A program made the position numbers and the translations under genes. A stretch of DNA of 64,000 nt. It comes from Clostridiaceae bacterium BRH_c20a (GTDB lineage Bacteria; Bacillota; Peptococcia; Peptococcales; BICA1-8). The stretch is taken from assembly GCA_000961765.1 (NCBI GenBank), contig LADT01000013.1, positions 62,001-126,000 of the forward strand. Direction: 5' to 3'. Within the stretch, counting starts at the first letter, position 1. The number at the start of each line of letters is the position of its first letter. Positions 4,042-61,656 of this stretch are shown here, piece after piece. A model generated the notes under the pieces. The model did no database searches. It worked only from the letters and a program-made list of their open reading frames with translations, and had not been told where the DNA came from.

Positions 4042-4253
4042 CAAGGTTAAGGTTTCGCTCACTTCATTCACTAGGTTAAGGTTACTAAAGGAGCATTTGT
4101 ATTTGAATCTAGCGAAGCGAAATCTTAATCTTAATCTTGGTCTTGATCTTGATCTTGATCTTGATCTTGATCTTGATCTTGATCTTGATCTTGACCTTAG
4201 CCTCAACCTCAACCTCAACCTCAACCTTAACCTTAACCTCAGCCTCAGCCCTA
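4042..4253. repeat. Hexamer repeat element with nine perfect TCTTGA copies
   Basis: This fills the argC-argJ gap. It opens with AAGGTTAAGGTTTCGCTC and CACTAGGTTAAGGTT, continues with TCTAGCGAAGCGAAATCTTAATC, then nine exact TCTTGA units (4141-4194), and degrades into CTCAAC, CTTAAC and CTCAGC units up to the argC stop. It is the most homogeneous of the window's hexamer loci. Six-frame translation yields the (RS)n, (DL)n and (IL)n shadow ORFs in the track, which are not genes. Confidence 0.9.
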
Positions 4254-8137: not shown

Positions 8138-8485
8138 GTCCTAGTGCATGGTGCTCGCACTCGGTGCCCGATGACCAGTGGCAGAAAAAGAATTTAAATT
8201 GGGGCACACTCGGATAGTATGTGGAGATCGCCGCACTACGCTCGCGATGACAGAATATATATAAGTCCATACTTTTTTACTGCACCGACAGGTGACATCC
8301 TATCCCGCAATGAGCCTCTAAAGCCTGTGTCAGACGCAATATGTTAACCCTTAAGTATTGTCAGACGCAAAATCTAAACAGTAGTGTATATCAAGCGCTA
8401 AAAATTGTCTTAGCAGTAATGTCCTCACTGGTCACTGGTCCCTGGTCCCTGGTCACCGGTCCCTGGGCCCTGGTCACCGAGTACA
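8138..8485. repeat. Repeat-filled gap within the AmmeMemoRadiSam locus
   Basis: 348 bp between the two genes, no gene seen. Contents: heptamers of the GKGMYCR class (about 8143-8190), a GATCGCCGCACTACGCTCGCGATGAC repeat (8226-8256), and a 30/31-bp-period repeat with TGTCAGACGC at 8328 and 8359 and a degenerate copy at 8389. It ends with a heptamer array GGTCACTGGTCCCTGGTCCC in opposite orientation (about 8430-8480) that touches the stop of the next gene. Confidence 0.8.
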
Positions 8486-52738: not shown

Positions 52739-52883
52739 TAGGTTAAGGTTTCGCTTCGCTAGGTTAAGGTTAAGGAAGTACCTAAAAAAAATGCTTAATC
52801 TTAGCCTCAACCTAGCGAAACAAAATGAGCGAAACCTCAACCTTAGTTGGAAGTAATGTTCCTTTAAAACATTACTTCCAACT
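52739..52883. repeat. Hexamer element plus palindrome at the cysS 3' end
   Basis: GGTTAAGGTTTCGCTTCGCTAGGTTAAGG faces AACCTAGCGAAACAAAATGAGCGAAACCTCAACC, a complete inverted repeat of the core. It is joined to a 16-bp-arm palindrome AGTTGGAAGTAATGTT/AACATTACTTCCAACT (52845-52883). The right arm of that palindrome encodes the last residues and stop of cysS. Confidence 0.85.
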
Positions 52884-54446
52884 AGTTCCCTGTGGTGCAT
52901 CCTCAATAATTATACCCACATTTTTCAACTCCTCTCTTATTAAATCAGCAGTTTTAAAATCTTTATTTTTTCTGGCAATTTGCCTAATATTGATTATCAC
53001 TTCCATTATTTTTTCTAAAAGATCCGCTGCCTCCCCCTCATGCTTCCAAAGGGTTCCCTTAGTGCCGTCTTCCAAAACTATTCCAATTTCCTGTAAATGG
53101 TCCCTAATACTATCTGCAGTTTTAAAATTCTTTGCTGCTCTAGCATTTTGCCGTAATATGATTATTAAATTCATCAAACCATCAATATTTCCAGTTCCGT
53201 TCACTTCTTTTCCTAGGGAAATTCCCAAAACAGCTAATAAATCGTCAAATACTTTTTGCGCCTCTCCTAAAGAAGTTTTATCCAACTGTGGCTCCCTTAA
53301 GTAAGTATTTACCTCCCGAGCTAAATCAAATAATACAGCTATTGCTAAAGCGGTGTTGAAATCGTCATTCATAGCCCCTTGGAATTCTATACAGGCTTTT
53401 TCAGCCGCCTGCCTTATTTTCTTTCCATTATCATATTGTCCCGAGATTTTTAACCCGTTTAAAAGCTGCGAATAAGAATTGGATAGCCTTTCTAGCCCTT
53501 TTTGGGCTACCCTCAATTTTTCATCATCAAAATCTAGCGGACTGCGATAATGGGTAGCCAACAGGTAAAACCTTATTACCATTGGATCAAATTTCTCCAT
53601 TATTTCTCTAAGTAAAAAGAAATTACCTAGAGATTTGGACATTTTCTCTTGATTTATAGTTATAAAACCATTGTGCAGCCAGTACCTAGCCATAGGTGCA
53701 TCCATTAAGGCTTCCGTCTGGGCAATTTCATTTTCATGATGGGGGAAAACTAAGTCATAGCCTCCTCCATGAATATCAAACTCCTCACCCAAATACTTGC
53801 AGGACATTGCCGAGCACTCTATATGCCAGCCCGGCCGTCCTTGACCCCAGGGGCTATCCCAAGCAGGCTCTCCTGACTTAGCTTTTTTCCATAATGCAAA
53901 ATCCAAAGGATCTTTCTTTCGCTGGTCAACCTCTACCCTTGCCCCCGATAGGAGGTCATCAATACTTCTACCGGAAAGCTTCCCATAGTCAACAAATTTT
54001 CTTACGGAGAAATAAACATCTCCCTCAACCTCATAGGCATATCCTTTTTTTTCCAAATTTTTAACAAAGTTAATTATTTCTTCCATATGTTCACTTACTT
54101 TAGGATGGATATCTGCTCTTTTTACCATAAGCCTATCTGCATCCGTAAAATACTCAGTTATATATTTATCAGCTAAAGCCAAAGGATTTTCCTCTTCTTC
54201 TTTAGCTTTGTTGATAATCTTATCATCCACATCAGTAAAATTTTGCACATAAGTTACCTTATAACCCAGATATTCCAAATACCTTCTAATAGTATCAAAT
54301 ACTACTATGGGCCTAGCATTACCGAGATGAATAAAGTTATAGGTGGTCGGCCCACATACATACATTCGTACGTGTCCTTCCTCCTTGGTTATGAAATGTT
54401 CTCTCCTCTTAGTTAAGGTATTATAAACGTGTAAATTATTATTCAT
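52872..54446 (-). CDS. cysS: Cysteinyl-tRNA synthetase with duplicated C-terminal hairpin
   Basis: 524 aa, against about 465 for typical bacterial enzymes. Class-I motifs: [16 protein letters not shown] (HIGH-like) and KMSKSLGN; zinc-site residues in WHIECSAM. The usual end, ...[25 protein letters not shown], falls near residue 468. After a seven-residue linker comes a second copy, ...[25 protein letters not shown], roughly 60% identical. Start ATG 54446 overlaps cysE by 8 bp. Controlled by the upstream Cys T-box. The extra copy may extend tRNA contact; its role is unknown. Confidence 0.95.
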
Positions 54447-55104
54447 TTTTTTTACCCTCCAATTGATATACCTTTTCTTCGAGCCTTTGAACCTGCTTTT
54501 GCAAGCATAAAAGCATTTCTTGAACAGGATCTGGGAGATTATTGTGTTGCAAATCTATTTCATTTATTCTTTCTTTATTTAAATTTACTCCATCTTTAAT
54601 TACGACCCGCCCTGGTACCCCTACAACTGTACAATTCTCCGGAACCTCCCTTAGTACAACTGAGCCTGCCCCTATTCTTACATTATCCCCAACTTTAAAA
54701 GAACCAAGTACTTTTGCCCCGGTACTTATAACAACGTTATTTCCAATAGTCGGGTGTCGTTTACCCTTTTCTTTTCCTGTGCCTCCTAGAGTAACGCCCT
54801 GATAAATAGTAACATTATCTCCTATTTCTGCTGTTTCACCAATAACCACCCCTGCTCCATGGTCAATGAATAATCCTTCACCAATAGTGGCCCCCGGATG
54901 AATCTCAATCTGGGTAAGAAACCTTCCTACCTGCGAGATAAAGCGGGCTAAAACATACCATTTCATTTTGTAGAAAAAGTGACTGCTTCTGTGAAACCAG
55001 ATTGCATGTAATCCGGGATAATTTATTAAAATCTCTAAGATACTTTTAGCGGCAGGATCTCTCTCAAATACAACCTGTATATCCTTTTTTATTCTATTAA
55101 ACAT
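54439..55104 (-). CDS. cysE: Serine O-acetyltransferase
   Basis: 221 aa, makes O-acetylserine for cysteine synthesis. Left-handed beta-helix hexapeptides: [32 protein letters not shown] (abridged), [23 protein letters not shown]. The C-terminal [22 protein letters not shown] looks like a coiled coil. Start behind GGAGGAG. First gene of cysE-cysS, an arrangement shared with B. subtilis gltX-cysES; it overlaps cysS. Confidence 0.96.
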
Positions 55105-55145
55105 TATTATCTCCTCCTCTGTTTACTTATGGGTAAAGCTTTGTG

Positions 55146-55305
55146 GTCAGCATCCGATGAATGGCATTTTCCTGGGATGCATCTGCTATTAGGTCTTACT
55201 GCATGATGCATCTGATGATTGTGAATTTGTTTTGATGCATCCTTTAAGCTAGACCCGGGTGCAGATGCCACCTATGATACTAGCATGCATGGGATGCATC
55301 CCATA
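55146..55305. repeat. 29-bp-period GATGCATC repeat
   Basis: The 8-bp palindrome GATGCATC recurs at 55176, 55205, 55234 and 55293, with a variant GATGCCAC at 55264 and a degenerate TCAGCATC ending at 55154. The spacing is 29, 29, 30 and 29 bp. Spacers differ but are partly related (GATGAATGGCATTTTCC, GATGATTGTGAATTTG). The last 70 bp match 2646-2712 closely (CTTTAAGCTAGACC, GCATGGGATGCATCCCA). It lies between the T-box terminator and cysE, so it is in the mRNA. Confidence 0.85.
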
Positions 55306-55344
55306 ATATTTACCTTTAAGCAGATTCATGCCTTTTTTTGTACG

Positions 55345-55772
55345 CAAAAAAGTCCCTCATCTCCTACAGAGACGAAAGACTTCGCGGTTCCACTCTGGTT
55401 GAACAGTAATTATAATTACCGCTCCACTCATTCGGGCTTTTAACGGTGCCAACCGGAAAAACCTACGGTTTATTGGAGAGCCAACAAAAGGTTAAGGTTT
55501 CGCTTCGCTAGGTTAAGGTTGAGATAAGACCAGAAATTAAACCCGGACTAAACCTTAGCCTTAGTCTGACCAACAAAATTACTTAGAAGCTAACCTTGAC
55601 CAATAAGATTTGACCTAAAAGTTAAGTCAACCTTAACCTGTTATCAGGCGTAGCCAGATAACACTTCAGCTTTTCGATTCACGGGTGCACTTCACTTCTA
55701 CCGGAGCCTAGGTTTGCTTACAGCCGACGACAAACCCTCTCTGGAGGTTCAATAAAAACTACTCTCCCGGTC
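55345..55772 (-). promoter_or_regulatory. Cysteine T-box riboswitch controlling cysE-cysS, with inserted repeat
   Basis: On the minus strand: stem I from GGGAGAGTAG, a specifier loop GTGAAGTGCACCCG giving TGC (Cys, 55689-55687), the antiterminator T-box AGAGTGGAACCGCG (55396-55383), then terminator AAGTCTTTCGTCTC/GAGATGAGGGACTT with a T run (55382-55345). Uncharged tRNA-Cys should favour antitermination. A hexamer element of about 150 bp sits between stem I and the antiterminator, stretching the leader to about 430 nt. The match to cysE and cysS supports the specifier. Confidence 0.9.
55490..55640. repeat. Hexamer repeat element inside the Cys T-box
   Basis: GGTTAAGGTTTCGCTTCGCTAGGTTAAGGTTGAG, a variable middle, AACCTTAGCCTTAG, and the right-end module TTACTTAGAAGCTAACCTTGACCAATAAG shared with 33446-33475. 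A final CAACCTTAACCTG closes the pair with the left end. It is placed in the linker where T-box leaders tolerate length variation. Confidence 0.88.
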
Positions 55773-55830
55773 ATTATCTTTACTTATTTAGACTTTCGTC
55801 TATCGTCCATCGATTATTTTGTTTGTCATC

Positions 55831-55897
55831 GCGAGCGTAGCGCGGCGATCTCTTACCCAAGAGATTGCTTCAGTCGTACCTCCATCACAATGACACA
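55831..55897. repeat. GTCATTGCGAGC-type inverted repeat in the cysE leader
   Basis: GTCATCGCGAGCGTAGCGCGGCGATCTC, then TTACCCAA, then GAGATTGCTTCAGTCGTACC and ACAATGACAC. It is nearly the same as 10080-10156 (ATTGCTTCAGTCGTACCTCCATCGCAATGAC). It lies between the promoter and the T-box. Confidence 0.8.
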
Positions 55898-55946
55898 TTG
55901 GATTAAAATCTGAGTATATTTCAAGTTGACTTGAATCTTAATAATA

Positions 55947-55976
55947 ATTATATCTCGGCTTAATTCCTAGTGTCAA
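55947..55976 (-). promoter_or_regulatory. cysE-cysS promoter
   Basis: TTGACA (55976-55971), 18 bp, TATAAT (55952-55947). It lies just after gltX and about 175 bp upstream of T-box stem I, leaving an unusually long leader filled by a dispersed repeat and a heptamer patch (CGATGGACGATAGACGAAAG, about 55797-55820). A weaker GATAAT near 55776 could be a closer start. Confidence 0.7.
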
Positions 55977-56025
55977 GGTATGAATTAAAACATAAGACAT
56001 TTCTATTAGACGATGGACTATTAGC

Positions 56026-61442: not shown

Positions 61443-61656
61443 TCAGGGACCAGGGCTCAGGGACCAGGGCTCAGGGACCAGGGCTCAGGGACCAGGGCTC
61501 AGGGACCAGGGCTCAGGGATCGGGGATCGGGGACCAGGGCTCAGGGATCGGGGCTCAGGGACCAGGGCTCAGGGATCGGGGATCGGGGATCGGGGATCGG
61601 GGATCGGTGAACAGGGACCAGGGATCAGTGATCAGGGATCAGTTACCGGTGCCCGG
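61443..61656. repeat. Heptamer array of about 30 units
   Basis: Starting at TCAGGGA, the whole stretch parses in 7-bp steps: TCAGGGA/CCAGGGC alternating five times, then mixed TCGGGGA, TCAGGGA and CCAGGGC, four TCGGGGA in a row, then divergent units (TCGGTGA, ACAGGGA, TCAGTGA, TCAGTTA, CCGGTGC). The heptamer is kept while most positions vary between two bases. It starts just after the orphan's terminator and is the longest array in the window. Confidence 0.95.

Follow-up and report, generated by a model that had tools for sequence, protein, structure and literature searches.

The cysE leader

The leader described here lies in a 64,000-nucleotide stretch of the Clostridiaceae bacterium BRH_c20a genome (contig LADT01000013.1, positions 62,001 to 126,000), hereafter "the window." On its minus strand the open reading frames run ispD, ispF, and gltX, then the leader, then cysE and cysS; these names were assigned from the sequences together with the gene order. 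Relatives of cysE are found in 37 of 40 genomes. Along the leader come, in order, a promoter, an inverted-repeat element, a heptamer-like patch, a T-box, a terminator, and a GATGCATC array, followed by cysE (Table 1). A preliminary description of this DNA had named the promoter, the repeats, Stem I and its specifier, a hexamer element, the antiterminator, the terminator, and cysE, and every one of these parts is present on the minus strand.

Table 1. Features of the cysE leader and the two genes that follow it (positions in the window)
Feature	Position	Strand	Remarks
Promoter TTGACA-18 nt-TATAAT	55976-55947	-	12/12 consensus matches; the sole one of such quality
Inverted-repeat element GTCATTG/GTCATCGCGAGC, GTCATTGTGA...CGCGATGAC	55825-55894	-	Between promoter and T-box; folds at -24.2 kcal/mol
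Heptamer-like patch GATGGAC GATAGAC GAAAGTC	55791-55813	-	Short; read from the sequence at the locus
Stem I, with AGAGAG motif (55737-55742) and specifier TGC (55687-55689)	55679-55783	-	Rfam alignment; 3' end approximate
Stem II lower helix, 5' strand GAAAAGCU	55668-55675	-	Pairs at 8/8 positions
S-turn GAA	55665-55667	-	Directly after the Stem II 5' strand
Stem II hairpin 1 (TGTTATC...GATAACA)	55639-55663	-	Formed with other letters in G003 and G004
Hexamer element in Stem II tip (AACCTT family, TAGCGAAGCGA module)	55488-55639	-	152 nt
Stem II hairpin 3 (TTGTTGG...CCAATAA)	55470-55487	-	Also in G003 and G004 cysE and G000 valS leaders
S-turn 3' half CGUA	55464-55467	-	
Stem II lower helix, 3' strand GGUUUUUC	55456-55463	-	
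Stem IIA/B element with CCGUUA	55441-55456	-	Rfam alignment
Stem III	55401-55425	-	Rfam alignment
Antiterminator with T-box bulge UGGA	55368-55396	-	Hairpin, -4.1 kcal/mol
Intrinsic terminator	55346-55381	-	14-bp hairpin, -17.8 kcal/mol, then T run
GATGCATC array	55176-55300	-	Spacing 29, 29, and 59; between terminator and cysE
cysE (serine acetyltransferase)	54439-55104	-	First regulated gene; ORF
cysS	52872-54446	-	After cysE; ORF

The T-box (55783-55365, minus strand) matches Rfam RF00230 over the whole length of the model (positions 1-219) with 90.9 bits and an E-value of 2.4e-20. Because this is 2.1 bits under the gathering score of 93 bits, the T-box is missing from a default scan. A check with the T-box covariance model had been proposed, and the unspliced sequence passes it, although at a score under the gathering score. 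Genome-wide, G000 (the genome that holds the window) has 24 T-box matches in total.

The leader had also been described as an intact-looking cysteine T-box, and the details bear this out. The core elements follow in order, the specifier UGC fits the GCA anticodon of both genomic tRNA-Cys genes, and the bulge UGGA fits the UCCA ends (U73) of both, the genes ending in TCCA. Antiterminator and terminator overlap at 55368-55381 and are thus mutually exclusive. The Stem II lower helix covaries. Across 21 Cys T-boxes, 135 of 147 cells are paired, whereas shuffling gave 85 on average and at most 108. One base departs from the usual pattern, the S-turn here being CGUA instead of AGUA. The promoter sequence TTGACACTAGG also stands ahead of the cysE T-boxes of the sister genera G001, G003, and G004, and no second good promoter was found between the terminator and cysE.

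A repeat inside Stem II

A hexamer element of about 150 bp had been reported at 55490-55640, in close agreement with the extent that we find (Table 1). Its unit belongs to a repeat family. AACCTTAACC occurs 24 times in the window versus 0.24 expected, with 0 copies in the coding DNA of the window, and the core AACCTAGCGNAGCGAAACCTTNACC (≤3 mismatches) has 117 copies in the genome, the reversed-pattern control giving 0. A perfect core match at G000:C17:117490-117514 falls within the cysE leader. The element as a whole consists of hexamer arms plus a TAGCGNAGCGA module and has many intergenic copies, which places it among dispersed families. Its arms are complementary (inverted); we have not filed it as a MITE. 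Counts of a related 15-mer are 374 in G000, 111 in G001, 36 in G003, 68 in G004, 1 in G002, and 0-2 in three outgroups; the hexamer family therefore belongs to this group of genera.

The insertion had been placed in the linker. The covariance model alignment puts it in the Stem II tip instead, between the S-turn halves, above the S-turn and enclosed by the Stem II helix. It is flanked there by two small hairpins (1 and 3), which relatives also have, and the full-length Rfam match confines the extra length of the cysE T-box to Stem II. The distance from one S-turn half to the other is 197 nt here, 132 nt in G003, 67 nt in G004, 65 nt in G001, and 45 nt in G002; in the Cys T-boxes of 16 named genomes it is 3-72 nt, with a median of 14. 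A hairpin TTGTTGG..CCAACAA was considered as a piece of the hexamer element and ruled out, as it shows no genome-wide repetition.

Repeats outside the T-box

It had been proposed that the leader was "rebuilt from four repeat families." Among the repeat families at this leader, the hexamer element alone falls within the T-box, and the rest lie on its flanks. The core of the upstream inverted repeat has 26 copies in the genome and 0 in four relatives, with 0 for the reversed-pattern control. Downstream, the GATGCATC palindromes are a genome-wide array family: pairs at ~29-nt spacing number 41 in G000 (control 0), 28 in G001, and 120 in G004, with 0 exact-pattern pairs in G002 and 0 in G003. Some of the stretches between these palindromes recur at several places.

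Elsewhere in the window there are tandem arrays of a 7-mer, TCAGGGA, with a 28-bp higher period (61443-61642), of a 6-mer, ATCTTG (4122-4198), and of another 7-mer, TCACTGG (8425-8479). The genome seems rich in several short-repeat families.

Related leaders

Natural orthologues served as insert controls, G004 being without the element and G003 with one. In G003, which represents another genus of the family (cysE 87% identical), the cysE T-box contains a hexamer element at the matching position, and the G001 cysE T-box has heptamers at this Stem II site. In the G004 cysE T-box the site holds a small hairpin alone, with hexamer-like ends.

The same site is occupied in front of a second gene. 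A G000 T-box (L016:1501-1890, G000:C42:17410-17799), assigned to valS because of the downstream protein, carries a long hexamer array there, and the hairpins flanking the array resemble those of the cysE leader. In the G001 valS T-box (L200, G001:C43:43441-43854; 414 nt, 107.8 bits), Stem II contains heptamers and hexamers in one mixed patch, and the G004 valS T-box is without an insert at the site. In 74 T-boxes of four genomes, inspected by a motif scan and, among the long ones, by direct reading, the only hexamer arrays seen were in Stem II. Repeats at the same spot in related cysteine and valine switches suggest a part of the T-box that tolerates foreign RNA. The T-boxes of a pheS-like gene, L022 (G000:C85:139387-139725) and L183 (G003), likewise have long Stem II tips, made of sequence other than hexamers.

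The cysE orthologues score 102.6 bits with hexamers (G003), 103.7 without (G004), and 119.7 with heptamers (G001); the leader in the window is the lowest of the four. The insert as such does not lower the T-box score, since orthologues with and without it score alike. The suggestion that a repeat had entered a tolerant place, and that the leader could be used as a natural experiment, is supported. The inserts of G000 and G003 may well go back to a common origin; the branching of the sister genera is not resolved by the cysE tree. An exchange of Stem II tips between the cysE and valS leaders of G000 is possible.

Landing and folding of the insert

The window has 10 hexamer clusters in 12.8 kb of non-coding DNA. 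The 24 T-boxes of G000 make up ~5.5 kb together, and 2 of them contain hexamer elements; chance would give ~4 by the window density and <1 by the 117 genome-wide cores. Targeted insertion into T-boxes is unsupported, as the two seen fit random landing in non-coding DNA. The informative point is the location of the surviving inserts, rather than their number. Preference for the Stem II site (two independent G000 leaders and the G001 cases) is suggestive, short of statistical proof.

Without constraints, the minimum fold of the leader with its insert lacks the canonical Stem II base. Forcing this base in the full RNA costs 2.6 kcal/mol over that minimum and leads to separate folding of hairpin 1, the insert, and hairpin 3. 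Core pairing with the real inserts lies above the shuffle mean in 5 of 5 cases, with small individual differences. For the cysE leader it is 0.788 versus 0.675 with shuffled inserts (standard deviation 0.107), and structural insulation through folding amounts to a weak trend, given that 16% of shuffled inserts in this leader perform no worse than the real one.

Discussion

We consider it likely that the cysE leader is a transcription-attenuating tRNA-Cys T-box with a dispersed intergenic hexamer element in its Stem II tip. Stem I would read tRNA-Cys through the UGC specifier, and the Stem II base, S-turn, and IIA/B element would brace the codon-anticodon pairing; published structures have the Stem II S-turn against the codon-anticodon duplex (PMC7583486). 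Binding of the uncharged UCCA end by the UGGA bulge would favour the antiterminator over the overlapping terminator, so that a shortage of charged tRNA-Cys would turn on cysE-cysS transcription.

The hexamer element is predicted to fold largely on itself and to be directed away from the tRNA contacts, and would be tolerated for that reason. Sitting above the S-turn within a closed helix, it should leave the S-turn and codon-anticodon contacts free. The likeliest account is that dispersed repeats have accumulated in a tolerated pocket of a T-box that probably works; the cysE leader presumably still switches, and the insert would be close to neutral.

The cysE leader shares with the RF00230 T-box (transcriptional, Stem II, tRNA-Cys) all core elements in the same order. 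It differs in the S-turn spacing: a median of 14 nt separates the halves in the 16 named Cys T-boxes, whereas 197 nt do so here, 152 of them dispersed repeat. Stem II is the variable T-box domain, of about 10-200 nt, and insertions without an explained origin are described in every T-box domain (PMC7583486). In contrast to those, the insert in the cysE leader can be traced to a genome-wide repeat family.

The nearest precedent that we found comes from pneumococcus, where a BOX repeat lying between two trp T-boxes is transcribed with them and is apparently compatible with regulation (PMC3049150). In both cases a dispersed repeat and a T-box form a composite leader RNA. The BOX repeat lies between two T-boxes, whereas the hexamer element lies inside one, in Stem II, at a site that recurs in other leaders and genera. 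Among the open-licence papers searched, we found no report of a repeat within a single T-box, let alone one that recurs at one site across leaders and genera. As to the repeat itself, the Beggiatoaceae TAACTGA repeats (PMC4679880) are similar in forming short-unit arrays across non-coding DNA; the hexamer family differs in its AACCTT unit and TAGCGAAGCGA module. The literature searched contained no named family matching the AACCTT/TAGCGAAGCGA repeat.

Other explanations should be weighed. The first is that nothing was inserted, and that slippage expanded a native Stem II hairpin, such as AGGTTGAGG...TTTGACCT in G004, into an array of hexamers. The small G004 hairpin, with its hexamer-like ends at the same position, speaks for this, but it could equally be a remnant, and the insert has the TAGCGAAGCGA module, which is present in more than 100 unrelated places. 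We regard growth by slippage as unlikely.

Slightly less likely again is a decaying T-box, in which insertions are breaking the leader and cysE-cysS are expressed without tRNA control. Several repeats are piled up around this leader, which has the lowest score of the four orthologues and one S-turn departure. Nevertheless, the promoter, both tRNA contacts, the Stem II helix, the antiterminator, and the terminator are all retained, the stretch from terminator to cysE is without another good promoter, and in the sister genus G003 a T-box that has kept a hexamer insert still scores above the cut-off.

It is also conceivable, although we think it improbable, that the repeat was co-opted as a modulator of the switch, for instance one that slows transcription from Stem I to the antiterminator or binds a factor. 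Repeats do recur in Stem II tips, and hexamer-free tips in this family are already long (45-67 nt, where the 16 named genomes have a median of 14), but tip sequence and length vary freely between genera and the numbers are consistent with random landing in non-coding DNA. Finally, the earlier proposal, which the element's complementary arms might recommend, that Stem I meets the antiterminator through the hexamer hairpin is hardly credible, because the conserved Stem II helix, which closes around the insert and is present in short-tip relatives as well, already links the two ends of the element.

Wider meaning

The cysE leader is, then, a T-box that carries an unusual passenger. The most surprising find comes from outside the window, in the leuS T-box of G003 (L169:1501-1867, G003:C90:8591-8957; 137.6 bits), where a complete tRNA-Ala(GGC) gene is located inside Stem III (L169:1744-1819). 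AGAAGTC heptamers are also found in this Stem III, and its base GATAGG/CCTATC is kept. This gene is the sole tRNA-Ala(GGC) match in the G003 genome assembly. A TATAAT is too close to the tRNA to be a clear promoter of its own, and the attenuator transcript may therefore be the source of the tRNA.

A more general picture can be drawn, although we think it unlikely: the T-box Stem II tips of this family, and once Stem III, would be places where dispersed repeats, and even a tRNA gene, regularly come to rest; cysteine and valine leaders would trade whole Stem II tips; the kinetics of switching may change with the added RNA; and the G003 leuS attenuator transcript would double as a tRNA precursor.

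For annotators, it is worth remembering that repeat-bearing leaders can drop just below curated cut-offs and so be overlooked. For those interested in T-box function, the orthologues with a small hairpin, a heptamer patch, or hexamer elements are a natural series for the effect of foreign RNA in Stem II on tRNA sensing. One T-box insertion is given an origin: it is a dispersed intergenic repeat, lodged above the Stem II S-turn in a defined pocket.
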